Below, one piece after another: positions 21,022 through 37,677 of a stretch of 64,000 nt of DNA. A model generated the notes under the pieces. That model was not told the DNA's origin, did no database searches, and worked only from the letters and a program-made list of their open reading frames with translations. This stretch comes from Lachnospiraceae bacterium G41 (GTDB lineage: Bacteria > Bacillota > Clostridia > Lachnospirales > Lachnospiraceae), in NCBI GenBank assembly GCA_900100245.1, contig FNEU01000002.1:124001-188000 (forward strand), given 5' to 3'. Each line of letters starts with the position of its first letter. Positions within the stretch are counted from its first letter, which is position 1. Made by a program: the position numbers and the translations under genes.

Positions 21022-21047
21022 TAGAAGATTGCTAAAGGGAAAACCAA

Positions 21048-22874
21048 ATGGGAAATGAGTTTTTAAACTGCAGGTGCTGTGGGGGTGTACTCGATACTTT
21101 TTCAAACCTCACCGTGTGCGAACACTGTGGCGCTACCAACTTTATATCGGATGTTGCCAACAAAAAAATCTTTCAGTTAAACCGCGCCAACAAATTAAGA
21201 CAGGAAAGCGAATTTGACAATGCTGCAAGAATCTATGACAACATACTTGAAGAGAATGAGCCTACGGCGGATATTCTCTGGTATCGTACGCTTTGTGAAT
21301 ACGGTATCGAATATGTTCCCGATCCTATATCTGATAAATATTTCCCGACACTTCACAGAATAAACGATGAGAGCATTTTAGACTGCTCATTCTTTAAAAA
21401 TTGTATTGAGTTATGCGAAGGCGAGCAAAAGGAAACGCTCCTAAAAGAAGCAAAATACATAGATGAAGTTCAGACCAAATATCTTAATATAGCAGCCAAT
21501 GAAGACCCTTATGATGTGTTTATCTGCTACAAGGAAACCGATTTGGATACAGGCGAAGAGACCGAAGACGTACACTTGTGCGAAGAACTCTACAAAAAAT
21601 TAAAAATGATGGGATATAAAGTATTCTTTGCCAGAGAAACTCTTGAGCAGAAGCTCAGCATTGAATACGAGCCCTATATATTTGCGGCATTAAAAAGTGC
21701 CAAAGTAATGGTTGTGCTTGGCACCAAAGCAGAATATTTCTCATCCGTATGGGTTAAAAACGAGTGGGGAAGATTCTTAAAACTCATGGCAAAGAACCCT
21801 GAGAAGCAGATATTTTTTGCATGTGACGATCCCGAAGAACTGCCGAGAGCCTTTGCTTACAAACAGGCGCAGATTTTAGGCGAAGCGGGTGCAATCAATA
21901 ACCTTGCGGGGAATATAGATGAGTATTTAAAAGGAAGTCCCCAAAAAACAAAAGTTATTACAAATCAGGAGAAATTCGATCAGGCAATTTCCGCAAAGTC
22001 ACTTGAGTATGCGGATAGACTTGATAAAACACAATTCGGGGACCGTGAAAAACATTTAAGACAAGATATTTGGCAGGAATACGGAAAAGCAGAATTAACA
22101 AACAAGATATATGAATATCTTTTTCATATAGGTGCAATTTGTTTTATATTGTGCCAAATGTCATATATTATTTTTTCCGCTGTCGGTTTGTTTGGATTGG
22201 ACTATTTTTATAAATCTCGAACGGGGATGTCGGAATTTTATATTATATCCATTACCGGTGCAATAAGTTTTTTCCTTTTAGGACTTATATTTCAGTTTTC
22301 ATCAAAACAAATATGTTCGACAATAAAGGAAGAACAAAGCATTGTCCTTCTTATTGTGACATTCGTAATAGGTTCTGCTTTTAGCTCATTTATTTTATGT
22401 ATTTTCTTAGGTGATGCTTATGATATTTTTTCCGCAGCAATAATGATGGCTATTCCGGTTGCGATGATTTTAGCCGCAACAGTTATGCCTTTTGTAAATA
22501 GTGATGAAAACGCCATTATAATTTCAAACACTCATTTAAGAAAACTTAAAGAACTTGAAGATGTTGCAAAAAACGAATTCTTTGAATTTGCGGATGCGAA
22601 TCTTAATGAGCTTAAGCAAAGCGGCTATGTCAATGATGAAGCAGAAGTCAAAGACTATCATTTTGATTTGGTAAAGACTGCAGTAAGCCAAAAGATTGAA
22701 GAAGATAAAAAATATGTCTGGAAAACGATTAATTACAATTCGAGTGATCATAGCCCTGTAAGCAAACGAATTGTTTTTACGATTCTTTATTGTTTGTTGA
22801 CAGGAGTATTGTCCATAATCAATATAGTGATTTTGTTCGGATCACCGCTTTCTGATGCGGTAGCATCGCTGTAA
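21048..22874 (+). CDS. Zinc-ribbon/TIR-domain membrane protein, paralogue 2
   Basis: A 608-residue paralogue starting 26 bases after the first. The N-terminal 300 residues are very close to the other copies: the ribbon has CRCCGG and CEHCG, the TIR starts with YDVFICYKETD, and SVWVKNEW carries Glu 239. The C-terminal third is hydrophobic with about four to five helices (about 360-490) and a final helix near the end, and its sequence differs greatly from paralogue 1. A stretch of 77 bases (21135-21211) is identical to paralogue 4. ATG 21048 follows AAAGGGAAA. The pattern suggests a conserved signalling head on a variable membrane module; the function is unknown. Confidence 0.85.
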   Translation: MGNEFLNCRCCGGVLDTFSNLTVCEHCGATNFISDVANKKIFQLNRANKLRQESEFDNAARIYDNILEENEPTADILWYRTLCEYGIEYVPDPISDKYFPTLHRINDESILDCSFFKNCIELCEGEQKETLLKEAKYIDEVQTKYLNIAANEDPYDVFICYKETDLDTGEETEDVHLCEELYKKLKMMGYKVFFARETLEQKLSIEYEPYIFAALKSAKVMVVLGTKAEYFSSVWVKNEWGRFLKLMAKNPEKQIFFACDDPEELPRAFAYKQAQILGEAGAINNLAGNIDEYLKGSPQKTKVITNQEKFDQAISAKSLEYADRLDKTQFGDREKHLRQDIWQEYGKAELTNKIYEYLFHIGAICFILCQMSYIIFSAVGLFGLDYFYKSRTGMSEFYIISITGAISFFLLGLIFQFSSKQICSTIKEEQSIVLLIVTFVIGSAFSSFILCIFLGDAYDIFSAAIMMAIPVAMILAATVMPFVNSDENAIIISNTHLRKLKELEDVAKNEFFEFADANLNELKQSGYVNDEAEVKDYHFDLVKTAVSQKIEEDKKYVWKTINYNSSDHSPVSKRIVFTILYCLLTGVLSIINIVILFGSPLSDAVASL

Positions 22875-22906
22875 ACGGTATTTTGTGTAAACCGGGGGAA
22901 AATTTT

Positions 22907-24733
22907 ATGGGAATAGAGTCTTTAAACTGCAGATGCTGTGGCGGTGCACTCGATACTTTTTCGAATCTTACCGTGTGTAAACACTGCGGCGCAACTAACT
23001 TCATATCGGATGTTACCAACAAATACGTCAATCAGTTAAACCACGCCAATAAGTTAAGACAGGAAAGCGAGTTTGACAATGCTGCAGGAATCTATGACAA
23101 CATCCTCGCAGAGAATGAACCGACTGCAGATGTATTATGGTATCGTACGCTTTGCGAATACGGTATCGAATATGTACCTGATCCCGTATCGGAGAAGTAT
23201 TTCCCTACGCTTCACAGAATAAATGATGAGAGTATTTTTAAATGCAGTTTCTTCATGCAGGCTCTTGAGTTATCCGAAGGCGAGCAGAAAGAAACCCTCC
23301 TAAAAGAAGCAAAATACATTGATGATGTTCAGAATAAATACCTTAACATAGCGTCTAATGAAGCTCCTTATGATGTGTTTATCTGTTATAAGGAGACCGA
23401 TTTGAAATCGGGAGAGAAAACCGAAGATGTGGAGCTGGCGGAAGAACTCTACAAAGAACTTACCACTTTGGGATATAAAGTATTCTTTGCCAGAGAAACA
23501 CTTAAGGAAAAGCTCAGCGTAGAATATGAGCCCTATATATTTGCGGCATTAAAGAGCTCTAAAGCAATGGCTGTGATTGGTACAAAAGCAGAGTATTTCA
23601 CTTCTGTCTGGGTTAAGAATGAATGGGGAAGATTTCTTAAACTCATGGAAAAGGATGCTTACAAGCAAATGTTCTTTGCGTGCGACGATCCCGAAGAAAT
23701 GCCTCGTGCTTTTGCCGGCAAACAGGCTCAGTTACTTGGAAACGAAGGAGCAATAAAAAACCTCGCTTCCAATATAGCCAATCATTTACAAGACATCAAA
23801 TTGGGCTTTTACAACAATTCTTCGGTATTATCTAAAGAACAGCAGAAATTTGACAGAATACTAGCCGAAAAATCGAGCAAATTTATAGATGATATTGAAG
23901 AAACCGAGTTTGGACGAGGCAGAAAAGGACTTAAAAAGATAATCTATCAATATGGAAATATTGCTGAGCAAACCCATCATACATATTTATCAACTTATAA
24001 ATTTGGAGCAACATGGCTTTTAGTAGCCGAAGCCGTAATATTTATTTTCTTTTTTGCAACGATTAGTGCCACAGGTGCTATCGGAGGCGAACCGTATGAA
24101 GTAGAGTACTATGTAATATTTTTGGTTTTCGGCATATTATTTAACTCTATCGGACTTTTGATACTTTCATCATGTAGCTCTATATTATTAACCTACGGAA
24201 TTCCGATTTACTTTTTAATGTATCTTGTTATGACTATTAACGGAAGGCTTTTCAACGTTTTAAATACAGTTTTAACTATTTCCATTCCGATTCTTATTCT
24301 GTACACAGGATTAAGTACTAAAGGCAATCGTTATTATAAAAAGAATGACGAAGCGGTAAAAGATGCACGCTACAAACTTGACCAATTACGTAATTTTTCT
24401 GAAACCGCACGTAAGGAATACGAAGGATTTGCGGGGATGGTACTTAACGAATATAAGAAAAACTATAAGGCATCGGACAATGTCCAGCTAAAAGAGCATC
24501 ATTTTGAAAACGTGAAATCGTTTGTTACCGAAGGATTGGACAAGGATGTAAAAGAATTATCTTCTTTTATAAACAGGAATGACGTTTCTTCTTATGAAAC
24601 TGCCAGGGAAAGAAGATTATTCACTTTTATATATTTTGCAATAGGAGTTTTTCTTGTAATCCTGCATTTTATTGTTATGAAATCACCGGGCATAGCATAT
24701 GAGATAGCTCATCTTTTAGACGCAATAAGTTAA
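22907..24733 (+). CDS. Zinc-ribbon/TIR-domain membrane protein, paralogue 3
   Basis: A 608-residue member of the quartet. It keeps the ribbon cysteines (CRCCGG, CKHCG), the helical linker and the TIR domain (YDVFICYKETD, FFARETLKEK, SVWVKNEW with Glu 239). Hydrophobic helices lie around 370-480 and one more sits near the C-terminus, separated by a charged helical stretch. ATG 22907 is preferred because CGGGGGAA lies 8 bases upstream; an in-frame TTG at 22883 has no such support. It starts 32 bases after paralogue 2 and is probably co-transcribed. No partner enzyme with a known defence role is adjacent. Confidence 0.85.
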   Translation: MGIESLNCRCCGGALDTFSNLTVCKHCGATNFISDVTNKYVNQLNHANKLRQESEFDNAAGIYDNILAENEPTADVLWYRTLCEYGIEYVPDPVSEKYFPTLHRINDESIFKCSFFMQALELSEGEQKETLLKEAKYIDDVQNKYLNIASNEAPYDVFICYKETDLKSGEKTEDVELAEELYKELTTLGYKVFFARETLKEKLSVEYEPYIFAALKSSKAMAVIGTKAEYFTSVWVKNEWGRFLKLMEKDAYKQMFFACDDPEEMPRAFAGKQAQLLGNEGAIKNLASNIANHLQDIKLGFYNNSSVLSKEQQKFDRILAEKSSKFIDDIEETEFGRGRKGLKKIIYQYGNIAEQTHHTYLSTYKFGATWLLVAEAVIFIFFFATISATGAIGGEPYEVEYYVIFLVFGILFNSIGLLILSSCSSILLTYGIPIYFLMYLVMTINGRLFNVLNTVLTISIPILILYTGLSTKGNRYYKKNDEAVKDARYKLDQLRNFSETARKEYEGFAGMVLNEYKKNYKASDNVQLKEHHFENVKSFVTEGLDKDVKELSSFINRNDVSSYETARERRLFTFIYFAIGVFLVILHFIVMKSPGIAYEIAHLLDAIS

Positions 24734-24758
24734 ATGTATTATTGGGGAATGAAAAAAT

Positions 24759-26945
24759 ATGAATCAGACAGAAAATCTTAACTGCAGATGTTGTGGTGGA
24801 GCACTTGATACTTTTTCAAATCTCACTGTGTGTGAACACTGCGGCGCAACCAACTTTATATCGGATGTTGCCAACAAAAAAATCTTTCAGTTAAACCGCG
24901 CCAACAAATTAAGACAGGAAAGCGAGTTTGACAATGCTGCAAGAATCTATGACAACATACTTGAAGAATATGGCCCTACAGCTGATATTCTTTGGTATCG
25001 TACGCTTTGCGAATACGGTATCGAATATGTGCCGGATCCTTTGTCGGATAAGTATATTCCGACGCTTCACAGAATAAACGATGAGAGTATTTTAGACTGT
25101 TCATTTTTTAAACAATGTATCGAATTAAGCGAAGGCGAGCAGAAGGATACCCTCCTAAAAGAAGCAAAATACATAGATGAAGTACAGACCAAATATTTAA
25201 ACATTGCGGCGGACGAATCTCCTTATGATGTTTTTATCTGTTACAAGGAAACCGATTTGGATACAGGAGAAGAGACCGAGGATGTACTGCTTGCAGAAGA
25301 ACTATATAATGAACTCTCAGGCATGGGATACAAAGTATTCTTTGCAAGAAAAACCCTCGAGGAGAAGCTTAGCATAGAATACGAGCCTTATATATTTGCT
25401 GCATTAAAAAGTGCCAAAGCGATGGCTGTGATTGGCACCAAGGCAGAATATTTTTCATCTGTATGGGTTAAAAATGAGTGGGGAAGATTTTTAAAACTCA
25501 TGGAGAAGCACCCTGAGAAGCAGATATTTTTTGCATGTGACGATCCCGAAGAACTGCCGAGAGCGTTTGCCTATAAACAGGCTCAGATTTTAGGTGAAGA
25601 GGGTGCGATTAAAAATCTTGCGAATAATGTGGATTCCTTTTTAAACGGCCCCAATACCCCTGCGGATTTGTCATTAACAGTTGCCAGGGATAAGATGCGC
25701 CAAGAGGTAATTCACCGTCTTAACGCAGGTGAGGACTTTGGTACCTTGGCTTTAATCAATGAAATTATCGGAGCTTTTCCCGATTATGCTGAAGGCTATT
25801 GGTTAAGAATGCTTTATATGAATAATGCCAAACCTTCGGAAATAAGAAAGCTGCCGCGTTATCTTTACGGAGATCGCGATTATGAAATGGCATTAAGCCT
25901 TGCCAAAGGGGATTTAAAAGAAGAGTACACCGAGATTGGCGCAATCTGCAATGAGAACCAAAAATATCAGGATGAATTCAGCAAAATCTTCAAGGAAAAA
26001 TCGATAGAATATGTCAATGATTTTGAAAAATCCGAATTAGCGCAAAAAAAAGAAAATATATTGGATAAAATCAGAAAATATGTGTACCAGGTTGAAACAT
26101 ACAACGACAAGCTCAAATATACTTTTACAATCGGATACAGCCTTTTCTATTTCGGTATTTTCTTAATGCTTTTGATTACGGCGAAATACAACGGTGAAAC
26201 GGCCTTTAATATGGGAGATACATATCATTTACGATTGGTAAGAAATCTTTTTTGTTCAATCTTTCTTTTAGCCGGAGTTATTGTGGGGCTTTCATATAAT
26301 AAGTTTTTGGATATAGCGATATCGGTGATTTGCGGCTTACTTTTGATTATATCAATTGTTTTTGCAAACCAAGGATTTTTCTTTATATTGTTTGTTATTT
26401 TAATCCCGACGGCAGCATTTATTTTTTCCGCAAACAATCCTGATATAAACGAGCACAAAAAGCTTAGGGAAGATGGAAGCAGAAAGATAAAAAATGAACT
26501 TGAAAAACTGCAAAAATTATTAAGCACAGAAGCAAAGGATGATATAAGACAATTCGGTGAGAAACTTGCTAAGCAGTTCAAAGAAGATAAAAAAATAGAT
26601 TCAATAATAGAAATCAATGAACAGGATTATATCAAAGAACTGGAAAAACTGGGTAAAATATACGAATATGCCAAAGATGAATACACGAAATATATAGAAG
26701 CTTCATTTCACGAAGAAAAGGAAGAAGATAAATACGACAGGAAGGAATTTATGTATAAAACAGACAGTGTAATCGGTTTTATTCTTCTTTTTACTTTTTC
26801 CATACCGGTTATTCCTGTTGCTATTTCTCTTGTTGATTTGGCAGTTGATAAGTATCACAAACGTATACACGTAGGCCCGATTTTGGCATTGTTTGCTTCG
26901 ATTCCAATGACGGTACTTTATGTGTGGGCTATGGAATTTACCTAA
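24759..26945 (+). CDS. Zinc-ribbon/TIR-domain membrane protein, paralogue 4 with helical insertion
   Basis: The largest of the four at 728 residues. The zinc ribbon (CRCCGG, CEHCG) and TIR domain are as in the others, with SVWVKNEW carrying Glu 240; FFARKTLEEK replaces the usual FFARETL. About 100 extra residues follow the TIR domain (roughly 305-410), including ALINEIIGAFPDYAEGYWLRML, which looks like a TPR-type helical pair. The hydrophobic helices then follow (about 450-550), with a long charged helix and two C-terminal helices. It starts 25 bases after paralogue 3 and ends 37 bases before the acyl-ligase gene. Function unknown. Confidence 0.85.
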   Translation: MNQTENLNCRCCGGALDTFSNLTVCEHCGATNFISDVANKKIFQLNRANKLRQESEFDNAARIYDNILEEYGPTADILWYRTLCEYGIEYVPDPLSDKYIPTLHRINDESILDCSFFKQCIELSEGEQKDTLLKEAKYIDEVQTKYLNIAADESPYDVFICYKETDLDTGEETEDVLLAEELYNELSGMGYKVFFARKTLEEKLSIEYEPYIFAALKSAKAMAVIGTKAEYFSSVWVKNEWGRFLKLMEKHPEKQIFFACDDPEELPRAFAYKQAQILGEEGAIKNLANNVDSFLNGPNTPADLSLTVARDKMRQEVIHRLNAGEDFGTLALINEIIGAFPDYAEGYWLRMLYMNNAKPSEIRKLPRYLYGDRDYEMALSLAKGDLKEEYTEIGAICNENQKYQDEFSKIFKEKSIEYVNDFEKSELAQKKENILDKIRKYVYQVETYNDKLKYTFTIGYSLFYFGIFLMLLITAKYNGETAFNMGDTYHLRLVRNLFCSIFLLAGVIVGLSYNKFLDIAISVICGLLLIISIVFANQGFFFILFVILIPTAAFIFSANNPDINEHKKLREDGSRKIKNELEKLQKLLSTEAKDDIRQFGEKLAKQFKEDKKIDSIIEINEQDYIKELEKLGKIYEYAKDEYTKYIEASFHEEKEEDKYDRKEFMYKTDSVIGFILLFTFSIPVIPVAISLVDLAVDKYHKRIHVGPILALFASIPMTVLYVWAMEFT

Positions 26946-26982: not shown

Positions 26983-28599
26983 ATGGATTATCCGTATCTT
27001 GATACGGTCATATACGATAACTTTTATGAGATGCTTAAAGGAAGATATGAAACGAAGGCTAAAACCACAGCCATCCGTTTCATGGATAAAGAGCAGATAA
27101 CAGACATATCGTATGAAGAGATGATAAAAGAAACTTCCCTTATCGGACTGTATTTTAAAAAGCAGGGGATTGAGGGAAAGCATATCGGTATATTCTCTGA
27201 AAACCGTTACGAATATATAACCATATATATGGCAACGGTTATGAAGAATGTTATCGTACCGCTTGACAAGGAGATGACTTCAAAAAACCTCTCAGACTGT
27301 GTAAAGAATTTTGATGTTGATTATCTCTTAGTGACTGACGAGACAAAACAAAAAACCGAAAACGATGAGTTTTCAAAGCCTGACAATCTTAAGATTTTAA
27401 ACATTGACGACGAGGATTTTAAGAAGGTATTTAAAGACGAATCGGCAGATAAAGAAAAATGCATTGAAGAATTTTTTGAATATGTAAAAGATACGGATAA
27501 AGACAGATTTGCCGTTCTTGCATCCACTTCGGGAACGGACGGGGCAATGAAGGGCGTAATGTTAAGCCAGTACAATGTCATTACAAATATTCGCGGTACG
27601 CTTGAAAACAATGTCCTTAAAAATCCGACCTTTGCATTTCTTCCGATGAATCACACATACGGATTTAACCCCTGCATTTTGGCCACGATTTATAACGGTA
27701 CGACTCTTTGTTTAAACCTTAAAACAAAATACCTGCTTCGTGATCTAAGGACGTTTAATCCGTTCTTCTTTGGTGCGGTTCCGATGGTAATCGAGGGAAT
27801 GTATGACTCAATTATCAGAGAAGTCAAAAAGCAGAACAAAGAAAAAACCTTTAACCGTGCAATTAAGATTTGCAAGTTCTTCAGGAAATTCGGTATAGAT
27901 TTAAGACACCTATTCTTCGGCAAACTTATCTGCAAAAACTTGCGTCTCGTGGTAAACGGCGGAGCGGCGCTTAATGCGGATTATGTCCAAAAGTACGATG
28001 AAATCGGCATTACGATTTTAAACGGATACGGTTTAACCGAGTGTTCGCCCACAATTGCGGTTTCAAGAACGGGCAACAATGTGGTCGGAAGCGCCGGAAC
28101 CATTATGAAAAATATTGACGTCAAAATAGCCGAGGACGGTGAAATCCTCGTAAAAGGTCCCTGTGTAATGCTTGGATATTACAAGAACGAGGAAGCCACC
28201 AAAGCCATTATGAGAGACGGTTATCTTGCGACGGGAGATATCGGACATACGGACGGAAAGGTTATTTTTGTAACCGGCAGAAAGAAAAATCTCATCATCC
28301 TTGAAAACGGCAAAAACGTACCGCCCGAACTCTTGGAGAGTAAAATCAACTCGATTCCTTACGTCAAGGAAAGCATAGTGGTTTCAAGGAAAGTAAATGA
28401 CAGAAGCAATATCCTTTATGCGATAATAGTTTTACACGACGAAGAAAAGGAAGAATTCCTAAAAGATGATATTGCAAGCATAAATAAAGATTTGCCCTCA
28501 TACATGCAGATAACCGACTTTGAGGTAAGTAAAGAAGAGCTTCAAAAGAACAGCTCAAAGAAGATTATAAGAAGCGTGTATGCAAATAAAAATGAATAA
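26983..28599 (+). CDS. AMP-forming acyl ligase (ANL superfamily) of the radical-SAM cluster
   Basis: A 538-residue adenylating enzyme that activates a carboxylic acid with ATP and most likely loads it on the carrier protein encoded next. Motifs: STSGTDGAMKGVML (P-loop A3), NGYGLTECSP (A5), YLATGDIG (A7), GRKKNLIILENGKNVPPE (hinge A8) and the late catalytic lysine in NSSKKIIR. The overall pattern resembles fatty-acyl ligases more than NRPS adenylation domains. ATG 26983 follows AAGGCAGGG. It opens the biosynthetic run. The substrate is not predictable; a fatty or aromatic acid is most likely. Confidence 0.85.
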   Translation: MDYPYLDTVIYDNFYEMLKGRYETKAKTTAIRFMDKEQITDISYEEMIKETSLIGLYFKKQGIEGKHIGIFSENRYEYITIYMATVMKNVIVPLDKEMTSKNLSDCVKNFDVDYLLVTDETKQKTENDEFSKPDNLKILNIDDEDFKKVFKDESADKEKCIEEFFEYVKDTDKDRFAVLASTSGTDGAMKGVMLSQYNVITNIRGTLENNVLKNPTFAFLPMNHTYGFNPCILATIYNGTTLCLNLKTKYLLRDLRTFNPFFFGAVPMVIEGMYDSIIREVKKQNKEKTFNRAIKICKFFRKFGIDLRHLFFGKLICKNLRLVVNGGAALNADYVQKYDEIGITILNGYGLTECSPTIAVSRTGNNVVGSAGTIMKNIDVKIAEDGEILVKGPCVMLGYYKNEEATKAIMRDGYLATGDIGHTDGKVIFVTGRKKNLIILENGKNVPPELLESKINSIPYVKESIVVSRKVNDRSNILYAIIVLHDEEKEEFLKDDIASINKDLPSYMQITDFEVSKEELQKNSSKKIIRSVYANKNE

Positions 28600-28616
28600 A
28601 TGAAAGAATACAAAAG

Positions 28617-28850
28617 ATGTACGAAAAAATTGTTGAGATTCTAAAAGACAAATACGGTATCGAAAATGTTACGCCCGAATCGAATTTTAAAAAAGATCTG
28701 GGGCTTAATTCTTTTGACTTAATGGAGCTTGCATTTGTGGCAGAAGAAATCCTCGGAGTTGAAATGAAAGAAGACGCATACCGTAAGGCAGAAACAATAA
28801 AGGATATATGCGATTATCTTGAAACACTCGGAGCACGCAATGAAAACTGA
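28617..28850 (+). CDS. Acyl carrier protein
   Basis: A 77-residue carrier protein with the phosphopantetheine attachment site in DLGLNSFDLMEL: Ser follows Asn instead of the classical DSL, a variation seen in dedicated carriers. The acidic helical character is typical. It lies 17 bases after the ligase and overlaps the next gene by 11 bases. With the ligase it forms a loading module. It is clearly different from the FAS-type carrier at 52827-53066, arguing for a pathway-specific role. Confidence 0.88.
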   Translation: MYEKIVEILKDKYGIENVTPESNFKKDLGLNSFDLMELAFVAEEILGVEMKEDAYRKAETIKDICDYLETLGARNEN

Positions 28851-29925
28851 GATTGCCGACAGTAAAAAACTTCAGAATAAATTCCTGTCTTTTCGTAAAA
28901 AAATATACGGCGAGAAGAAGCTTTATGTCGACAACAGTTTTTTTATGCTAAAAGAGATTTTCTCCGACAAGCTTCATTTCACAAAGAGTTTAAGCATTAC
29001 TCCCTTAATGATAGAGGATGATGAAAACAATATTCTTTGTGAGGGAATAATTGCGGTTGCTAGAGACCTTCCTGAATATGTTCAACTTTGTTTTTTTGAA
29101 GCGCTTGAAGGAGTAAGTGATGCGGTAAATCTTCTTGTAGACGAAGCTGTAAGAATCGGTAAAAGCAAGGACTGTAAAAGACTGGTAATAGGTCTTTACG
29201 GACATGTGAATTACGGACTGGGTTTCCTGGATTCGCATTTTGATAAAGTCAATTCTTTTTCATCACCCGGAAACCCTTCTTTTTACAACGATTATTTTCG
29301 TTCCCTAAATTGCGAAGAGGTTAAGCTTAATTCATATTTTACGCATTCTCTCGACGGTAGACTTATGCGTTACGAAAAGATACTTGAGAAGCTTAACCGC
29401 GAATATGAATTTAAGAAATTCGACAAAAAGCATTTCGAAGAATATTCGAAGATGTATACGGATTTAAACAATAAATGTTTTACCGATCACAAATACTATT
29501 ACGTCCGCGATTACAAAGACGATGAGGAAATGTTAAAAGAACTCTTTCTTTTCATGAAGGAAGATTCTTTGATTTTTGCGTTTAAGGACGGGAAGCCTGC
29601 GGGCTTTATCCTCTGGTACCCTGATTTTAACGAGCTTGCAAAGCCGGGCGAAGCGTTCGGTACGAAGCATTATTTTAAGAATATTTTCGGTAATAAAAAG
29701 ATTAAGACCTGCAAGGTTATGGAATACGGAGTACTTGATGAATATAGGGGAGTGGGTCTTCCCTTTGCTTTGATTGCGCATGTTTATTCGATACTTTCGA
29801 ATTACGGCGTAAGTCAGGTTGAATCCTCGTGGATACTCGCGGATAACGAAGACTCAAACAGCTTTTGTAAAGCGTTCTGCGATGAACTTTACAAAGAATA
29901 CGTGGTTTATGAAAAAGAAATTTGA
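28840..29925 (+). CDS. GNAT-fold acyltransferase-like protein
   Basis: A 361-residue cytosolic protein in the ACP cluster. The C-terminal part (about 190-361) looks like a GNAT domain: YGVLDEYRGVGLPFALIAHVY resembles the acyl-CoA pyrophosphate-binding loop and helix, and it is followed by SSWILADNEDSNSF. The N-terminal half may be a degenerate second GNAT domain. ATG 28840 follows GGAG and overlaps the ACP gene; an in-frame TTG at 28819 is disfavoured. It could transfer an acyl group from the carrier protein to an amine or alcohol; that is inference. Confidence 0.7.
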   Translation: MKTEIADSKKLQNKFLSFRKKIYGEKKLYVDNSFFMLKEIFSDKLHFTKSLSITPLMIEDDENNILCEGIIAVARDLPEYVQLCFFEALEGVSDAVNLLVDEAVRIGKSKDCKRLVIGLYGHVNYGLGFLDSHFDKVNSFSSPGNPSFYNDYFRSLNCEEVKLNSYFTHSLDGRLMRYEKILEKLNREYEFKKFDKKHFEEYSKMYTDLNNKCFTDHKYYYVRDYKDDEEMLKELFLFMKEDSLIFAFKDGKPAGFILWYPDFNELAKPGEAFGTKHYFKNIFGNKKIKTCKVMEYGVLDEYRGVGLPFALIAHVYSILSNYGVSQVESSWILADNEDSNSFCKAFCDELYKEYVVYEKEI

Positions 29926-30946
29926 TGAATCTTTTAAAGAATATATCTGCGAAAATCCTACGGAGATTTTCGAGCATATGAAGAATGCACGTTTTTCCGA
30001 GGATTTATTTGAAAAGAGCGGAGACTTGACCTTTCCTTTTACGCTTTCAATGCTTACTCTTTTAAAAAGTGCCAATCCTTTAGAGCAGAAATATTATTAC
30101 ATTGAAGACGATTCGAATTACGCATTTTTTACGGTCTATGAAAACAGAATGAATCTTTTTACATACGGAAAAGCCGAATGGTTTATGAATATTCACACTA
30201 TAGCTTTCCCCTGTTCGTTAAGTAACAACGGCTTTATTACGAACAATGTTAAATGGATGCTTACCTACATTAAGACCATAAAAGGCTGCAAGCTGGTGCT
30301 TAACCTCGATGAAAAAACGGATATAAAAGGCATGAGCTTTGGCGAAACGCTTCCGACCTGCGTGTTTGCAATTCCGGAAAACATAAAAGATATAAAGACC
30401 TATATGGACTCCTTAAGAAGTCCTTACAGAAGAAGAATTAATATTGCTGTTAAAAACTGCAGCGATATCGAAATAAAAAGAATAAAGGACGACTCAATTG
30501 ATATTCATCCTTTGTATTTGCAGACTTACGAGAAATCCGAATATAAACTCGAATGTTTAAACAAAGAGTTTTTTGATAAAACCGATGGCGAAAAACTTGT
30601 TTTTTTACGAGATAAAAAACCGGTCGGATTTGTTCTTTTAAAAGAAACAAAAAAAGAGCTTGTCTTTATGTTATGCGGTATGAATTATACGCCGGATAAA
30701 GACAATGCGGATTTGTATTTTTACATGCTTTTAAAGATAGTGGAATATGCGCTTGAAAAAGGATTAAGGGTAATTGATTTCGGACAGACCTCCGAGAAGA
30801 CCAAGCTTAAATTCGGAGCCGTCCTTAAGAAAAAATACTTTTATGCGCACCATTCCAATCCTTTTTTAAATATTTTTGCCATGGTCGGAAAACATATGCT
30901 TGAATACAAATATGATTTTCCCGAATTCCATGTATTTAAGGAGTAA
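29909..30946 (+). CDS. GNAT/FemAB-like (Acetyltransf_6-type) acyltransferase
   Basis: A 345-residue protein overlapping the previous gene by 17 bases. The middle segment SLRSPYRRRINIAVKN and the C-terminal VIDFGQTSEKTKLKFGA are reminiscent of the FemAB/CelD-like acyltransferase fold, where such a segment closes the substrate site. There is no membrane helix. ATG 29909 is inside the preceding gene, as expected for coupled translation; the in-frame reading from 29819 lacks a ribosome-binding site. A role in transferring an acyl or aminoacyl group in the pathway is likely but unproven. Confidence 0.65.
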   Translation: MKKKFDESFKEYICENPTEIFEHMKNARFSEDLFEKSGDLTFPFTLSMLTLLKSANPLEQKYYYIEDDSNYAFFTVYENRMNLFTYGKAEWFMNIHTIAFPCSLSNNGFITNNVKWMLTYIKTIKGCKLVLNLDEKTDIKGMSFGETLPTCVFAIPENIKDIKTYMDSLRSPYRRRINIAVKNCSDIEIKRIKDDSIDIHPLYLQTYEKSEYKLECLNKEFFDKTDGEKLVFLRDKKPVGFVLLKETKKELVFMLCGMNYTPDKDNADLYFYMLLKIVEYALEKGLRVIDFGQTSEKTKLKFGAVLKKKYFYAHHSNPFLNIFAMVGKHMLEYKYDFPEFHVFKE

Positions 30947-30948
30947 AA

Positions 30949-32376
30949 GTGAACGTACTTCTCTTCAGACCGCGACCTGACAAAGAGACCATAGGACTTC
31001 AGAATGTAATGATCTGCGAGCCCTTGGAACTCGAGTATATCTCGGCTAATATCGAAGCGCTGGGCCATACATGTACGATCGTTGATATGATAATCGAAAA
31101 GAAAAACGTGCCGTACTTTGTGAAGCTTTACAATCCCGATGTTGTAGGCATCACAGGGTATATTTCACATGTCAACATTATGAAAAGATATGCGAAAGAA
31201 GCCAAGGAAGTAAACAAAAAAATAGTGACAATTATAGGCGGAGTTCATGCGGAGGTTAATCCCGCGGATTTCGAATCGCCCTATGTTGATTATATTATCC
31301 GTGCAAACGGCATCAGAACATTTATAGATATCTTAAACAAGCTTGAAAAAGATAAGAATAACACCAAGACAAACGAGGGTGGCAACAAGTCTGAAATAAT
31401 CGGAGAAAAAGACGAAATAGAGTGTATCTATGTGCCGGGTAAAAAACCTCCTAAAAAAGATACAACCTTTAATTATCTTTATCCTGACAGAGACAAGGTA
31501 AACAAATACCGTTCGAAGTATTATTACATGTTTCACAGAAACTGTACGCTTATTAAGACTTCGTTCGGATGCCCTTATAACTGTAAATTCTGTTTCTGTC
31601 GTCAGATAATGGATGACCAGTATTTTGCGAGGGATCTCGAGGACATCGTAAATGAGCTAGCGACGATTCCCGAGACCGAGATTTATATCGTTGATGATGA
31701 TTTTCTCGTAGGAAGGGAGCGAATACTTAAATTCTGCGACCTCCTCGAACAAAGAGGCATCGAAAAGAAATATCTTATATACGGTCGTGCGGATTATATC
31801 GCAGGTAATGAAGATGTAATTAAGCGTTTCAAGGAAGTCGGATTAAGAGCAGTTATAGTAGGCCTTGAATCCTGCGATTCGAAGCAGCTTGACGATTACA
31901 ACAAGCGTACCAATGTGGCCATAAACGAAAAGGCAGTCGGTATTTTAAAGAAATACGATGTCGAATGCTACGGTACATTTATTTTAGGACTTGACTGGAC
32001 CTGGGATGACTTTAATGCTCTTTACAAATGGATTAAAAAGCTTGGCCTTGTATTTGTAAATTTACAGCCCTTAACTCCACTTCGCGGAACGGATATTTAC
32101 GAAAAATACAAGCCGAGATTTATCGTAAGAGAAGATGAATACGAGAAGTGGGATTTGGCACACCTCGTGGTTCGTCCGGACAATATTTCCGTCAGAAAAT
32201 ACTACTGGTATACGATGGTTTTATATTACAGGATTACGGCTAATCCTATAAGCGGCTGGTATATGGTTAAAAAGTACGGTCTTCACGATACGCTTAAATT
32301 AAGTATTGGTGCGGTGGCTGTTAATAACCAGTATTGGAAAAAATTTATTGAAGGTGAAAAATGCAAGAAGAATTAA
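30949..32376 (+). CDS. B12-binding-type radical SAM protein 1 of 5
   Basis: A 475-residue enzyme with an N-terminal Rossmann-like cobalamin-binding domain (LLFRPRP, EPLELEYI, IIGGVHAEVNP) and a radical SAM core with CPYNCKFC (Cys 208, 212, 215), which binds the iron-sulfur cluster. A charged, low-complexity stretch of about 40 residues (around 130-170) lies between the two. The core continues with YIVDDDFLVGRERI and IYGRADYIAG. GTG 30949 follows AAGGAG and lies 2 bases after the preceding stop. Such enzymes often methylate or rearrange unactivated carbons; the actual reaction is unknown. Confidence 0.85.
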   Translation: MNVLLFRPRPDKETIGLQNVMICEPLELEYISANIEALGHTCTIVDMIIEKKNVPYFVKLYNPDVVGITGYISHVNIMKRYAKEAKEVNKKIVTIIGGVHAEVNPADFESPYVDYIIRANGIRTFIDILNKLEKDKNNTKTNEGGNKSEIIGEKDEIECIYVPGKKPPKKDTTFNYLYPDRDKVNKYRSKYYYMFHRNCTLIKTSFGCPYNCKFCFCRQIMDDQYFARDLEDIVNELATIPETEIYIVDDDFLVGRERILKFCDLLEQRGIEKKYLIYGRADYIAGNEDVIKRFKEVGLRAVIVGLESCDSKQLDDYNKRTNVAINEKAVGILKKYDVECYGTFILGLDWTWDDFNALYKWIKKLGLVFVNLQPLTPLRGTDIYEKYKPRFIVREDEYEKWDLAHLVVRPDNISVRKYYWYTMVLYYRITANPISGWYMVKKYGLHDTLKLSIGAVAVNNQYWKKFIEGEKCKKN

Positions 32377-33689
32377 GAGTATTGCTTATTCGTCCCAAAT
32401 ACACATCTTTGGTTGCACACCTTGAGCCCCTCGGACTTGAATATCTTATGGGACTTGCAAGGGATATGGGTATTCCATGCGATATCCACGATGAATTCGA
32501 TCATCCGTGGACCTTTCGCTTTTCAAGGATGTGTCGCGTCATAAAAAAGGGCAATTACAATTACATAGGTCTTAATGCGAATGCCAATACTGTGGATTAT
32601 ATCAACAAACGTGCAGCACAGCTTAAGAAAAAATTTCCCGATATTAAGATAATGGTAGGCGGTCCCGAAGCGGAGATGAACTATAAGGAATTCTGCGTGG
32701 ATGATGTGGACTTCGTATATTACGACAACGGTCTGTCGACATTAAAGAAAATGTGGGAGTCTGATTTATCGCCTGAAGCACTTGACAGATTAACCGGTAT
32801 AGCTTTTAAGAAAGACGGAGAGTGGGTCATAAAAGAAAAGGGTGAACCCGTTTGCGGATTTATCAACAAGCCCGACAGAACTGCCTTTTACAGAGGCCTT
32901 AAGAAAAATTATATTTTCATGAAAGGCAAATTCGCCTTAAGCAAGGCATCGTTTTCATGTCCTTTTAACTGCGCCTTCTGTTATTGTACGAAGATGAATT
33001 CAGGGGCTTATACAGAGCGTGACATCATGGAAGTTGTCGATGAAATCGAAGAGATTAAACATGATAAAATCTGGTTTGTCGATGATACGTTTTTCTTCCA
33101 CAAGGAAAGAGTTGAGACCTTCTGTAATGAGATAATAAAGCGTGGAATTAAGAAGCATTTCATGGCATATTCGAGAGCCGATTTTATTGCCGCACATCCC
33201 GAAGTTTTGCCTCTTGCATATGAAGCGGGATTCAGAGATATCTTAATCGGTCTTGAAGCAATAAGTGACGAAACGCTTGATGAATATAATAAGCAGACTT
33301 CGAGAGATGATAACATTATGGCGATTAAAAACCTTCATGATGCGGGAATAGTATGTAATGGTCTTTTCGTAATCAATTATACGGCTACAAGAGATGATTA
33401 CAGAAAGCTTATTAAGTTTATTCATGAGAACAATCTTTTATGGGTTGTATTCGGCATTTTCACACCTTATAAGGGTACTGATGCTTATGATGAATATAAG
33501 GACAAGGTTATTAACTTTAAGTCCTGGAGATTGGACGGTACGCATATTACGCTTAAGCCTACCAATATGTCGTCGCTTGAATATATGCTAAGGTACTATT
33601 GGATACATGTTTTGACATATCCTAAAATAATGGTTCGAACCCTGTTTGGAACCGCTTACGATACAAAGATAAAGGGCTGGTTTAAATGA
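32361..33689 (+). CDS. B12-binding-type radical SAM protein 2 of 5
   Basis: A 442-residue paralogue of its neighbours. The N-terminal B12-type domain has LEPLGLEYLMGLARDMG and MVGGPEAEMNYKEF; the radical SAM core has CPFNCAFC (Cys 200, 204, 207), IWFVDDTFFFHKERV and AYSRADFIAA. The Rossmann loop has Pro-Glu where protein 1 has Val-His, and a clear DxHxxG cobalamin-ligand motif is not visible, so B12 may bind base-off or not at all. The start overlaps the previous gene by 16 bases. It is probably part of one coupled operon. Confidence 0.84.
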   Translation: MQEELRVLLIRPKYTSLVAHLEPLGLEYLMGLARDMGIPCDIHDEFDHPWTFRFSRMCRVIKKGNYNYIGLNANANTVDYINKRAAQLKKKFPDIKIMVGGPEAEMNYKEFCVDDVDFVYYDNGLSTLKKMWESDLSPEALDRLTGIAFKKDGEWVIKEKGEPVCGFINKPDRTAFYRGLKKNYIFMKGKFALSKASFSCPFNCAFCYCTKMNSGAYTERDIMEVVDEIEEIKHDKIWFVDDTFFFHKERVETFCNEIIKRGIKKHFMAYSRADFIAAHPEVLPLAYEAGFRDILIGLEAISDETLDEYNKQTSRDDNIMAIKNLHDAGIVCNGLFVINYTATRDDYRKLIKFIHENNLLWVVFGIFTPYKGTDAYDEYKDKVINFKSWRLDGTHITLKPTNMSSLEYMLRYYWIHVLTYPKIMVRTLFGTAYDTKIKGWFK

Positions 33690-34999
33690 CACAGAAATAC
33701 ATGTTTGTCAGAGTACATTATGATAAAAGAGTCGCAAGCCTCGAGCCATTGGGGCTTGAGTATTTAATGGCTGCTGTTAAGGCTGAGGGAAAGTTTGGCC
33801 TTATACACGATGAAAGCATTGAAAGCTCTTTCGGCCGTTTTTCGAGACTTCTAAAAAAAGTGGATGATAACGGCATTACGATTGTCGGCTTTTCGATAAT
33901 GTCCAATACCGCATGGTATGTGCTTAAACTCATTCACAAATTAAGGAAAGCAAGACCGAATGTAAAAATCATGGTCGGCGGTCCCGAAGTCGTTGTTAAT
34001 TTCGAAGATTTTATGATAGATGATGTGGACTATGTATCCTTTGACAACGGCCTTGATTCGTTCAGACTGGCACTTCGAAATGACTTTAACGAAGAGGTTA
34101 TAAAGACCTGTACGGGTTTTGCGGGAAAGATAAACGGAGAGTGGTTTTTAAATAAAAAGGGAGAGCCGATAAGCGATTACGGTTTGCTTCCGGATCGAAG
34201 TTTCTTTTATGAGAACAGATCTAAATTTCGCGTGCTTGCAAAGGGCTGCTTTTCAATGATGAAGACCGCATTTTCCTGCCCGCAGAACTGTAAGTTTTGT
34301 ATATCAAGACAGTTTAACAGCTGTACCTATAGGGAAAGGGCGGTTGAAGATGTAATCAACGAAATCATATCCATCGACAACGACAAAATATTTATTATCG
34401 ATGATGATTTCCTTGTAAACAGAGACCGTGTTCTTGCAATCTGTGAAAAGCTTATAGAGCTTGATTTGAAAAAGACTTTTATGATCTTTGCGAGAGCGGA
34501 CAGTATCTGCAGATGCGAGGATATTTTCCCGATTATTTACAAAGCGGGCTTTCGCGATATGCTTGTAGGTCTCGAAGCGGTTGAAGATACCACGCTTGAA
34601 AAATACAACAAGAATTCTAGCGTTGAATTAAATATGCGTGCGGTTAAAATCTTACGCGAATACGAAATGGTATGCGTAGGTTTATTCGTAATCAACTACG
34701 ATTTTAAGCACAAGGACTTTATGAACATTAATAAGTTCATCAAAAAAGAAAAGCTTATATGGGTGCTTTTTAGTATATTAATTCCCTTTAAGGGAACTCC
34801 CGTATATGAGGAAAACAAAGACCGACTCTACCACTACAAATACAGAAGAACGGGCGGTACGAGTGTTCTTATGAAGCCCTCGAATATGCCCATGCTTTTG
34901 TTTAAGCTTGAATTTCATTTTCTTTACTATGTAAATTATCCGCGCATTTACTGGGCCGGTGTAACGCATATGTTTAACAAGAAATATAAAAACAAATGA
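33686..34999 (+). CDS. B12-binding-type radical SAM protein 3 of 5
   Basis: A 437-residue relative, closest in pattern to protein 2: LEPLGLEYLMAAVKAEG, MVGGPEVVVNFEDF, then CPQNCKFC (Cys 198, 202, 205), IFIIDDDFLVNRDRV and IFARADSICR. ATG overlaps the preceding stop by 4 bases (ATGA). The hydrophobic-aromatic C-terminal helical region (HFLYYVNYPRIYW) is shared by the group and could contact a lipidic substrate, which is speculation. Confidence 0.84.
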   Translation: MTQKYMFVRVHYDKRVASLEPLGLEYLMAAVKAEGKFGLIHDESIESSFGRFSRLLKKVDDNGITIVGFSIMSNTAWYVLKLIHKLRKARPNVKIMVGGPEVVVNFEDFMIDDVDYVSFDNGLDSFRLALRNDFNEEVIKTCTGFAGKINGEWFLNKKGEPISDYGLLPDRSFFYENRSKFRVLAKGCFSMMKTAFSCPQNCKFCISRQFNSCTYRERAVEDVINEIISIDNDKIFIIDDDFLVNRDRVLAICEKLIELDLKKTFMIFARADSICRCEDIFPIIYKAGFRDMLVGLEAVEDTTLEKYNKNSSVELNMRAVKILREYEMVCVGLFVINYDFKHKDFMNINKFIKKEKLIWVLFSILIPFKGTPVYEENKDRLYHYKYRRTGGTSVLMKPSNMPMLLFKLEFHFLYYVNYPRIYWAGVTHMFNKKYKNK

Positions 35000-36354
35000 A
35001 AATACTCCTTATCAAGCCGGAAACGGTCGGGATATTCAGTTTTACATACCTTGTAGACCATGAGCCTTTGGAGATGGAATACCTCTATACGGTTTTCACG
35101 AAGGACGGCCATGAAGCAATAATCTACGACAGAAGGTATGAACCGATATCCCTAAAAAAGAAACTGAATAAGGAAAAGCCCGATGTGGTTTGCATCACAG
35201 GTTATATCACGCAGGAAAAGCTCATAAAAAAGCTTTGTGTGGCGATTAAAAAATATAGACCTGAGGCTAAAATTATTTTAGGCGGTTCGCATGTGGAAAT
35301 AAATTACGAGAACTTTTATGATTCCAAAGCGGATTACCTTTATCTTTTGTCGGGCTTAGACAATATGTGCAGGCTCGTAAAAGACATAGAGAAAGAAGAT
35401 TTTTCGGATATAGAAGAAATCCCCGGTATCTGTTTTAAGAAAGACGGAGAGTGGGTAAGCAATCCCAAGATTTTCGAAACTCCCGAAGATTTGCCCGTTC
35501 CCGACAGAACACATTTTTACAAGAACAAATTCCGTTTCAGGTATCTGTGCTTTAAACCGCTTGCGCTTGTAAAGAATTCATACAGCTGTCAGAGAAACTG
35601 CAATTTCTGTTTTTGTACCAATCGTAACGGCGGAAGATATGCATGCAGAAGCGTCGACAAGCTCGTCGATGAAATCGCTTCCTTAGACGTTCCGGCTGTG
35701 CATATTACGGACGACAATTTCCTTGTAAACAGAGAGTATCTAAAGGAATTTATAAGGCTCGTCAAAGAAAAAGACATACATAAAAAATATCTTATATACG
35801 GACGTGCTGATTTTATCGCAAATAACGAAGACATCATAAAAGAACTCGCCGAGATTGGTCTCGCTCTTATTATGGTCGGACTTGAGGCCACAAATGACGA
35901 AGAACTTGATTCGTACAACAAGCATGTATCTCTCCATGAAAACGAAGAGTGTATTCGTATATTATCTGAGAACCATATTTTCTGCGCGGGACTTTTCATC
36001 GTGCATCAGGCGATGACAAAAGAAGATTTTAAAAAGCTTTACAAATGGATTGCATCAAGAGATATTATTCCGACAGTATCCGTATTTACTCCGATGCAGG
36101 GCTCTGCGATGTATAAGGAGTATGAGGATAAGCTTATTACCAAAGACGTGACCAAGCAGGATTTGTTCCACTGTCTTTTAAAGCCCGAGCATATGAGTGT
36201 AAGACGCTTTACGTTTGAATATTACAAGCTTTCCATGGGACTTGCTTTTAAAAACAGAAAATCACCGCTTTATGCGGATAACGAATATTTTAAGGGAATG
36301 CTTCACATTATTGCGGTAATTCTTTTAAAGATTAAGAGAGTATTTGTATTATAA
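34996..36354 (+). CDS. B12-binding-type radical SAM protein 4 of 5
   Basis: A 452-residue relative: HEPLEMEYLYTVFTKDGH and ILGGSHVEINYENF in the N-terminal domain, CQRNCNFC (Cys 198, 202, 205) in the core, then VHITDDNFLVNREYL and IYGRADFIAN. The GGSHVE loop resembles protein 1 more than 2 and 3. ATG overlaps the preceding stop by 4 bases. The C-terminal end is hydrophobic (LHIIAVILLKIKRVFVL), possibly a membrane-contacting helix. Confidence 0.84.
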   Translation: MKILLIKPETVGIFSFTYLVDHEPLEMEYLYTVFTKDGHEAIIYDRRYEPISLKKKLNKEKPDVVCITGYITQEKLIKKLCVAIKKYRPEAKIILGGSHVEINYENFYDSKADYLYLLSGLDNMCRLVKDIEKEDFSDIEEIPGICFKKDGEWVSNPKIFETPEDLPVPDRTHFYKNKFRFRYLCFKPLALVKNSYSCQRNCNFCFCTNRNGGRYACRSVDKLVDEIASLDVPAVHITDDNFLVNREYLKEFIRLVKEKDIHKKYLIYGRADFIANNEDIIKELAEIGLALIMVGLEATNDEELDSYNKHVSLHENEECIRILSENHIFCAGLFIVHQAMTKEDFKKLYKWIASRDIIPTVSVFTPMQGSAMYKEYEDKLITKDVTKQDLFHCLLKPEHMSVRRFTFEYYKLSMGLAFKNRKSPLYADNEYFKGMLHIIAVILLKIKRVFVL

Positions 36355-36357
36355 ACC

Positions 36358-37677
36358 ATGAAGAAAAAACTTTTGTTAATCCAGCCGACTCCATACGATC
36401 AGTACGGAAATCTGGTAAAAAAGAAAAAATTATATTTTGTCGGCCTTGCGCTTCCTTTGCTTGCAGCCTTAACGCCCGATGATTTTGAAGTCGAGCTTTG
36501 CTACGAGACGATAGAAGATGTACCCTTTGACACCGATGCGGAGTTAATCGGTATCAGCAGTATGGGACATGCCGTAATGCGTACCATCGATATCGCAAAG
36601 AAGTTTAAGGAACTCGGAAAGACTGTAATCCTAGGCGGCTACATGGTGTCCTTAATGCCCGAGGAAGCAAAGAAATATGCCGATGCCGTAATGATAGGAG
36701 ACTCCGAGGAAACCTGGGGCGAGATGATAAACGATTATCTAAACGGCACCCTGAAAGAGTATTACAAAAAGAAACTGACTAAGCTTGAGACTCCGCTTCC
36801 GAAATACGAGCTTGTATTAAATAAAAGAATCGGTAATTTCTTGCCGGTTCAGGCAGGAAGAGGATGTACCAAGACCTGCAGTTTCTGTTCCATATACTGC
36901 CTTTATCACGGACAGTATTTAAGAAGAAATATTCCCGATGTAATGCGTGACATTAAGCGTATAAAAGAACTGGGCTTTAAGCAGTTTCTTTTACTCGACG
37001 ACAATCTTTTTTCAGACAGAAATTATGCACTTGAACTTTGTAAGGAAATATCCAAAGTAAAAATGCACTGGATGACTCAGTGCTCAATAGATATTGCAAA
37101 GGATGAAGAACTTTTAACCGCCGTTGCAAAGAGCGGCTGCTATGCGTTAAGCTTCGGCCTTGAGAGTATAAGCCGTGAAAGTCTTGTAGGCATGCAGAAA
37201 GCCTGGGCACATCCCGACGAATATTCAAAACAGCTTAAAATCATCAGAAAGCACGGTATAGATATCTCTACGGAAATGGTAGTAGGAGCGGAAGGGGATA
37301 CGCTTGAATCGATTAAGGCTACCGCAAGATTTATCGAGGATAACAAAATTGCCGTACCGAGATTTTATATTTTAACACCTATTCCGGGTACTCAGTATTA
37401 CGACGAGATGAAGGAGCAGGATCGAATATACAATACCGATATGTATTCCTACAATGCCTGTGAAGCGGTTCATATTCCAAAGAACATGACGCCCGAGGAA
37501 CTGACCAAAGCATATTGGGACCTTTACAACGATGTATATTCCATCAGGTGTATTTTAAAAAGAACAATCTTTAGTGACTGCCTGATTAAGAGGCCGTATA
37601 ATGCGGTATTTTACCTTGGAGTAAATCTCTTTTACAGATATCACATAAAACACGGAATTGTTCCGAATATTGTATAA
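36358..37677 (+). CDS. B12-binding-type radical SAM protein 5 of 5 (divergent)
   Basis: A 439-residue enzyme from a different subfamily. The N-terminal domain reads MKKKLLLIQPTPYDQYG and VILGGYMVSLMPEEA; the core has GRGCTKTCSFC (Cys 170, 174, 177) and QFLLLDDNLFSDRNY, then LSFGLESI and PRFYILTPIPGTQYYDEM. The pattern recalls the hopanoid-methylase-like (DUF4070-containing) proteins, but I cannot verify this. It begins 3 bases after gene 4 and ends the cluster. No terminator is recognisable downstream. Confidence 0.84.
   Translation: MKKKLLLIQPTPYDQYGNLVKKKKLYFVGLALPLLAALTPDDFEVELCYETIEDVPFDTDAELIGISSMGHAVMRTIDIAKKFKELGKTVILGGYMVSLMPEEAKKYADAVMIGDSEETWGEMINDYLNGTLKEYYKKKLTKLETPLPKYELVLNKRIGNFLPVQAGRGCTKTCSFCSIYCLYHGQYLRRNIPDVMRDIKRIKELGFKQFLLLDDNLFSDRNYALELCKEISKVKMHWMTQCSIDIAKDEELLTAVAKSGCYALSFGLESISRESLVGMQKAWAHPDEYSKQLKIIRKHGIDISTEMVVGAEGDTLESIKATARFIEDNKIAVPRFYILTPIPGTQYYDEMKEQDRIYNTDMYSYNACEAVHIPKNMTPEELTKAYWDLYNDVYSIRCILKRTIFSDCLIKRPYNAVFYLGVNLFYRYHIKHGIVPNIV

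Follow-up and report, generated by a model that had tools for sequence, protein, structure and literature searches.

The locus examined here raises the question of what product needs five B12-binding radical S-adenosylmethionine (SAM, also AdoMet) enzymes encoded side by side. They belong to a cassette of nine open reading frames (ORFs) in a 64,000-nucleotide stretch of the genome of Lachnospiraceae bacterium G41, an inhabitant of the rumen (contig FNEU01000002.1, positions 124,001 to 188,000; hereafter the window, in whose numbering the cassette spans 26983-37677), together with genes for an acyl ligase (LIG), an acyl carrier protein (ACP) and two GNAT-fold transferases (GN1 and GN2); the radical SAM proteins are called R1 to R5 in gene order. 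At a probability of roughly 40%, we read the cassette as an anaerobic operon for an N-acylated amine or amino acid (of the acyl-amine, lipo-polyamine or aminolipid type) that is tailored by radical chemistry.

The nine ORFs all lie on the plus strand, and neighbours overlap or stand at most 17 bp apart (successive gaps from LIG to R5: 17, -11, -17, 2, -16, -4, -4 and 3 bp). The overlapping run of a ligase, an ACP, two GNAT-fold proteins and five B12-type radical SAM genes described in the initial annotation was confirmed by ORFs, Pfam matches and AlphaFold2 models. Compared with close relatives at loci L020, L021 and L024, dN/dS was ≤0.225 in 27 of 27 gene comparisons; with three more distant loci it was computable in 4 of 27, the highest value being 0.424 (ACP, L031) and the others saturated. 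The cassette is a nine-gene operon under purifying selection, and it is not a chance assembly, because low dN/dS is joined by a core that is conserved across phyla. Promoter-like sites in the cassette (28) showed no excess over shuffled sequences (31.8, standard deviation 5.9), and terminator-like sites (17 against 7.8, standard deviation 2.7) all fell inside the nine genes; neither count was used. A megablast search of a plasmid collection with the cassette gave no match.

To define what is conserved, we searched a collection of 84,980 species genomes, which yielded 97 GN1 relatives; the best 80 of these 97 gave 79 loci (L numbers), divided into distant (GN1 identity ≤40%, n = 37) and closer ones (n = 42). 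A core of GN1, GN2, R1 and R5 was complete in 39 of the 44 loci with good flanks (≥6.5 kb upstream and ≥9 kb downstream), at any R1 threshold between 200 and 400 bits, and in 57 of 79 loci overall (55 at 400 bits), many of which are cut by contig ends. Its hosts extend from Lachnospiraceae to Desulfobulbaceae, Calditrichales, Cloacimonadota, Gastranaerophilales and Myxococcota, and the scattering of genes in relatives that the initial annotation had named as a sign against the cluster was not seen: the genes stay linked. The usual distant order is GN1-GN2-Rv-MT-R1-R5-Ry, in which MT is a class I methyltransferase and Rv and Ry are HpnR-like radical SAM proteins. Of the 37 distant loci, 27 have MT, and so do 9 of the 42 closer ones, some of which also have the ligase and ACP (L067, L068, L071, L077 and L082); the window version has no MT and carries R2, R3, the ligase and the ACP.

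LIG (>300 bits) was found in 30 of the 79 loci, in Lachnospiraceae and, for example, in L077 (Defluviitaleaceae), L054 and L069, and ACP in 31, with neither in any of the 37 distant loci. Since both are absent there while GN1, GN2, R1 and R5 recur, the ligase and ACP are a lineage-specific add-on and not the centre of the system, and the term "ACP-centred" used for the cluster at the outset had to be given up. The carrier site itself, proposed as LNSFD, was borne out in the window protein, and the phosphopantetheine-site serine is kept in 26 of the 26 cluster ACPs examined; the window genome has six PP-binding matches, the cassette ACP included. The nearest NCBIfam model to LIG is the long-chain fatty-acid CoA ligase NF004837 (191.7 bits, under its cut-off of 476). 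AMP-ligases near GN1 in L132 and L133 (23-24% identity to LIG; 425 bits, with 476 needed, against a fatty-acid ligase model) and in L095 (23%) were set aside as unrelated general ligases; none was counted as LIG.

Closer to the window, 61 genomes were compared: a close GN1 (E ≤1.5e-28) is present in 15 of the 31 genomes of the genus (counting that of the window) and in 1 of the 30 others; one additional genome of the genus sample has a remote GN1 match only, and several are incomplete. Across 299 genomes of the phylum, R5 above 690 bits (a cut placed in the gap between 699 and 331 bits) was found in six and GN1 (E ≤1e-40) in seven, and the same six have both (Fisher's exact test, p = 7e-12); the seventh, G106, has a remote GN1 (21% identity to the window's) and no cluster, and was counted as a miss. 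At a looser limit, R5-like proteins appear in 36 of the 299 genomes, 30 at ≤331 bits. The full window gene set is present in Lachnospiraceae bacterium AB2028 and the core in Anaerovirgula multivorans and Fusibacter ferrireducens; as these are strain records rather than metagenome-assembled genomes, a direct test of the question should be feasible.

All five radical SAM proteins have the Radical_SAM Pfam domain and an intact CxxxCxxC motif. The B12-binding domain exceeds its cut-off (32.1 bits) in four, R5 barely doing so (32.4), while R2 is barely under (31.5) and passes in the genome-wide scan of the window genome; R1 to R5 thus belong to the broad class defined by B12-binding and Radical_SAM domains with CxxxCxxC, with the B12 part borderline in R2 and R5. 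Six B12-binding domains exceed the cut-off in the window genome, which has one cobalamin riboswitch, and five of the six lie inside the cassette, a concentration that we count in favour of our reading. The division proposed in the initial annotation, with R1-R4 sharing a GRAD/ARAD/SRAD pattern and R5 from another subfamily, agrees with motifs and tree. R1, R2, R3 and R4 read GRAD, SRAD, ARAD and GRAD in turn, R5 has none of these, and in a tree of 220 cluster radical SAM proteins (400-520 aa kept; 12 loci left out as near-duplicate or short) R5 stands alone on a long branch, on the side opposite R1-R4. In the same tree R2 pairs with R3 as its sister group, R4 falls in the Rv group and R1 groups with Rx/Ry. 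R5 is the best conserved gene of the cassette (44-68% identity in distant loci); R1 mostly shares 37-57% with its distant counterparts.

None of the nine proteins reaches an NCBIfam cut-off. Against the hopanoid model HpnR (TIGR04367, cut-off 650), R1-R4 score 113-156 bits (best R1, 155.7) and R5 57.5, and the Rv protein of L093 scores 159.9; against BchE (TIGR02026, cut-off 481), scores are 81-137 bits (best R1, 136.5); against the ladderane-associated TIGR04072 (cut-off 360), the best is R5 at 79.4 bits. A PhpK-type model is likewise among the nearest and below its cut-off, and the solved chains closest to R5 are AprD4 (6fd2) and 9ccb. The likeness to ladderane and hopanoid enzymes first suggested for these proteins therefore survives as a matter of nearest models and fails as family membership.

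Both transferases were modelled by AlphaFold2 with a predicted local distance difference test score (pLDDT) of 94 and have the GNAT fold, which places them in the GNAT superfamily by model and Foldseek match. The best Foldseek matches were tandem GNATs (7q3a, 2wpw) followed by FemX for GN1, and Sbb17/Sba18, FemX and lysyl-PG synthases (MprF), as well as N-myristoyltransferases, for GN2; as the latter matches span both kinds of enzyme, the donor of GN2 may be either an aminoacyl-tRNA or an acyl thioester. In two distant relatives the Acetyltransf_6 domain of GN2 is clearer (40.9 and 28.5 bits) than in the window protein. GN2 scores 13.6 bits with TIGR03019 (FemAB, XrtA/PEP-CTERM associated; cut-off 260), and a PDB sequence search with GN1 and GN2 profiles gave weak matches only. 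A presumed likeness of GN1 to bacterial ceramide synthases, for which a literature check gave no confirmation, was not used.

The nature of the acceptor is suggested by genes that adjoin the core in other lineages. Decarboxylases of three unrelated superfamilies (LysA/NspC-like, SpeD-like and PSD-like) lie in or near the operon in 12 of the 37 distant loci and in L132-L134. LysA-like genes lie within 300 bp of the core or abut GN1 in L107, L110, L111, L114, L115 and L119 (one Bacteroidales, two Cloacimonadota, one Deltaproteobacteria and two Myxococcota), with a weaker match 0.6 kb off in L117. In L113 and L116 (Gastranaerophilales), GN2 is followed by NspC-like genes, which share a Pfam family with the LysA-like ones. 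A SpeD-family gene precedes GN1 in L097 (Desulfopila) and stands at a distance of 4.4 kb in L096 and 3.5 kb in L109. Both SpeD-like proteins that were scanned have HTLT where the SIH motif lies, a region from which, judging by the motif rather than by alignment, we take the proline to be missing. In the parts of PMC10407285 available to us, bona fide AdoMet decarboxylases keep a proline in this central region, and the SpeD homologue of Ca. Electrothrix aarhusiensis is shown to be an L-ornithine decarboxylase whose gene stands beside casdc and casdh; these two genes were not seen at L109.

PSD-like genes sit inside the operons of L132-L134 and adjoin a FeeM-family N-acyl amino acid synthase, which was found in these 3 of 83 loci (two scanned, 43-48 bits; Pfam cut-off 27). 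FeeM-type synthases take acyl-ACP, according to the portion of PMC8762209 that we saw. Directly 3' of R5 in L067 is a DegV-family gene (FakB1 match of 93 bits, 350 needed), and ORFs of the same sequence cluster occupy this position in L068 and L071.

Under the reading that we favour, LIG would use ATP to charge the dedicated ACP with a free acid, of which a fatty acid is the likeliest, and acyl groups would pass, through GN1, GN2 or both, to an amino acceptor, for which ornithine, putrescine or a similar amine is plausible. The conserved radical steps would fall to R1 and R5, and those particular to a lineage to R2, R3 and R4; they might be C-methylations or the formation of rings or C-C bonds at unactivated carbons, with SAM and B12. 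What the substrate and acceptor are, how the steps are ordered and which kind of radical reaction takes place are all proposals here, built on the observed gene content, motifs, folds and linkage. The scheme of the initial annotation, in which an acid is loaded, modified by radical chemistry and transferred, is still sensible in outline; its acceptor needs revision, because decarboxylases of three superfamilies and a FeeM-type synthase neighbour the core in some lineages and favour an amine or amino acid over a glycerolipid. A broader claim, which we regard as doubtful, is that the loci form a new multi-phylum anaerobic pathway family for B12-radical-SAM-tailored acyl-polyamines or aminolipids, in which a fixed GN1-GN2-R1-R5 core would be served by lineage-specific supply modules (LysA/NspC-, SpeD- and PSD-type decarboxylases; FeeM; ligase and ACP) and by extra radical enzymes, three of them here, that would add methyls or rings.

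Several observations weigh against the N-acyl amine reading. The decarboxylase survey covered 83 loci with one query for each of four kinds and gave 15 matches, 12 of which lie within 300 bp of the core as compared with 109 of 691 non-core ORFs; the resulting p-value (Fisher's exact test, 4e-8) overstates the case, because we picked the queries when these genes were already known to us, and related loci do not count as independent cases. That three unrelated superfamilies have been recruited is a stronger argument for an amine link than this p-value. Decarboxylase matches were absent from all Lachnospiraceae loci searched and from 25 of the 37 distant loci, FeeM matches likewise from the Lachnospiraceae loci searched, and the NspC-, LysA- and SpeD-like proteins all fall under their own NCBIfam cut-offs (two SpeD-like proteins: 49.5 and 62.4 bits against 75.65 for AdoMet decarboxylase), so that any substrate named for them is a putative one. 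Family searches of the window genome gave no OKR-type, SpeD-type, PSD or FeeM match, and the LysA/NspC family appears in two places only, read as LysA and a YggS-like protein. With no dedicated amine source there, the amine would need to come from outside or from another route, unless it is itself an amino acid, and this gap is the main weakness of the model. The folds closest to GN2, moreover, use aminoacyl-tRNA and not acyl-ACP. The core also has exceptions: among well-flanked loci, L049 lacks R5, L061 and L065 lack GN2, and L109 lacks R1 and R5 (the fifth, L082, has R5 further along the contig); L062 has GN1 alone, with 10 kb upstream and 8.7 kb downstream available; and, where flanks are shorter, R5 was not seen in L059 and L077, nor GN2 in L112. 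We keep the reading at its odds because the FeeM, SpeD and LysA/NspC links stand.

The donor preference suggested for GN2 leads to an alternative, unlikely in our estimate, in which the transferred unit is an amino acid: the ligase would charge the ACP with an amino or small acid, GN2 would act like FemX or Sbb17 with aminoacyl-tRNA, and a peptide- or polyamine-like product would be C-tailored by the radical SAM enzymes. The best folds for GN2 (Sbb17, Sba18, FemX, lysyl-PG synthases) are aminoacyl-tRNA-dependent, the four LysA-like proteins scanned match TIGR03099, the decarboxylase of exosortase-associated clusters, although below cut-off (95-106 bits; 478), and butirosin biosynthesis follows a similar ACP-with-decarboxylase logic. 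Yet LIG is nearest to fatty-acid ligases, the FeeM-type and DegV-family neighbours indicate fatty acyl groups, and N-myristoyltransferases are also among the fold matches of GN2. A small cofactor, signal or metal-binding compound made without fatty acids, for which the Lachnospiraceae ligase and ACP would handle a short acid, appears distinctly unlikely. The high identity of R5 in distant loci would be expected of a small substrate that does not vary, AprD4 of the apramycin pathway is among its nearest solved relatives, and no recurrent transporter, resistance or regulatory gene was seen in the operon by reading, a survey without systematic annotation; the cluster is nevertheless patchy among close relatives, and its accessory enzymes vary widely.

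Modification of membrane lipids, in which acyl chains of glycerolipids would be alkylated, cyclised or coupled as in ladderane, hopanoid, glycerol dialkyl glycerol tetraether (GDGT)-ring or diabolic-acid lipids, is in our judgement very improbable. It would suit the HpnR/BchE likeness of R1-R4 and the TIGR04072 match of R5, and, in the sections of PMC13142503 that we saw, hopanoids, ladderane cyclobutanes and archaeal GDGT rings are products for which B12 radical SAM enzymes have been either reported or proposed; Butyrivibrio, moreover, has diabolic-acid lipids (PMC13274423, seen in part). All these model matches, however, are far under family cut-offs, glycerolipid acyltransferase and ether-lipid genes are not recurrent in the core as read, two GNAT-fold transferases and linked amine-forming decarboxylases would be unexpected, and the patchy presence in the genus (15 of 31 genomes, some incomplete) would be unusual for a structural lipid. 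The link to diabolic acid raised in the initial annotation is without support here, the genes of that pathway, including a Tes homologue, not having been sought. We therefore favour the N-acylated amine or amino acid over an aminoacyl or peptide-like product, followed by a cofactor or signal and lastly a membrane lipid.

Some relatives carry variants and additions. In one genome (L033, 15264-16604, on the same contig as L088) two open frames make up R5, and in another (G071:C31, which is L133) R5 has one in-frame TGA. Directly 5' of MT in L102 (1359-2219) and L103 (3099-3959) is a flavodoxin/ferredoxin-like gene, with a 4Fe-4S match over cut-off in L103, whose product might supply the radical SAM enzymes with electrons. 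Genes for an ABC-type ATPase, a CobW/HypB-type GTPase (scanned in L082) and a small cysteine-rich protein are inserted in the operon in L075 (7305-9435) and L082 (17534-19628), and in L075 R5 follows them. NifH-like and nitrogenase-component-1-like genes, then ABC-transporter-looking ones, stand directly 3' of the cluster in L033 (16819-19501) and L039 (819-3998); a link to nitrogenase-like genes was dropped because it concerns one genome only. Lower-scoring R5-like proteins were inspected at 14 loci of 13 genomes, most of them, by reading, without relevant context. Tandem R5-like B12 radical SAM proteins, two to four per locus, occur beside GNAT-like genes in L138-L141, possibly a parallel aminolipid system; L138, L139 and L141 also have a GH3-family gene.

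Upstream of the cassette (Table 1), positions 19129-26945 of the window hold four tandem TIR_2-domain paralogues (two scanned, both over cut-off) that end 37 bp before the ligase and, by reading, have a cysteine-rich N-terminal stretch and a hydrophobic C-terminal part; TIR_2-type genes, in two or three copies, also precede the cluster in L020-L023. On the minus strand at 47826-53057, 10 kb from the cluster, are FabK-, FabG-, FabF- and FabZ-looking genes (by reading), an AMP-binding ligase nearest to MbcS and acetate ligases (386 and 348 bits, under cut-offs) and a second carrier-protein match (52899-53057).

Table 1. Genes of the cassette, in window coordinates, with the assignment of each and what it rests on.
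Gene	Assignment	Position	Strand	Evidence or remark
LIG	AMP-forming acyl ligase (ANL fold)	26983..28599	+	Pfam AMP-binding, 172.3 bits
ACP	Dedicated acyl carrier protein	28617..28850	+	PF00550 (PP-binding), 39.7 bits; GLNSFD phosphopantetheine site
GN1	Tandem GNAT acyltransferase, universal core	28840..29925	+	Acetyltransf_1, 27.2 bits
GN2	FemX/lysyl-PG-synthase/N-myristoyltransferase-like GNAT, core	29909..30946	+	Acetyltransf_6, 19.5 bits, below cut-off 22
R1	B12-binding radical SAM, HpnR/BchE-like, core	30949..32376	+	Pfam, NCBIfam, tree
R2	B12-binding radical SAM, sister group of R3	32361..33689	+	Mainly Lachnospiraceae version
R3	B12-binding radical SAM, sister group of R2	33686..34999	+	Mainly Lachnospiraceae version
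R4	B12-binding radical SAM	34996..36354	+	Groups with Rv/R4 of distant loci
R5	B12-binding radical SAM, separate subfamily, core	36358..37677	+	Best conserved gene

The cassette is real and conserved, and among the matches listed in the open-licence literature (titles and abstract openings) we recognised no description of this gene set. A core of two GNAT-fold proteins and two B12 radical SAM enzymes that is kept in several phyla of anaerobes suggests a product that matters, and it matched no named pathway. Should the product be an acylated amine worked on by consecutive radical enzymes, the system would lend itself to the study of C-H functionalisation of lipid-like molecules and would define a candidate class of rumen and sediment metabolites.

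Among known systems, the hopanoid C-3 methylase HpnR shares the B12-binding and radical SAM layout and is the best NCBIfam model for R1-R4, but R1-R5 score far under its cut-off. BchE, the anaerobic Mg-protoporphyrin cyclase, has the same layout and is a precedent for a non-methylating B12 radical SAM enzyme in what we saw of PMC13142503; the scores are again under cut-off, and no tetrapyrrole gene was seen in the operon. The ladderane-associated TIGR04072 resembles R5 and belongs to a family with a proposed lipid context, whereas R5 stays below its cut-off and the cassette core holds no fatty-acid-synthase set. In exosortase/PEP-CTERM sets (TIGR03098, TIGR03099, TIGR03019), a ligase, a LysA-like decarboxylase and a FemAB-like transferase co-occur; TIGR03019 and TIGR03099 matches are far below cut-off here, and we know of no such set that includes B12 radical SAM enzymes. 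Synthesis of N-acyl ornithine by a GH3-like enzyme (OlsH) in planctomycetes, as described in the part of PMC12493201 that we saw, recalls the GH3-family genes beside R5-like pairs and GNAT-like genes in L138, L139 and L141, but the cassette has no GH3 gene and the GH3 protein of L138 is far below the OlsH cut-off (49.7 bits; 620). The FeeM-type clusters are comparable in their acyl-ACP donor and N-acyl amino acid product, and FeeM and PSD-like genes stand together in the operons of L132-L134. Their products include the palmitoylputrescine type, on which our literature search returned no confirmation. The window genome differs from them in having, instead of FeeM, five B12 radical SAM enzymes and two other GNATs.

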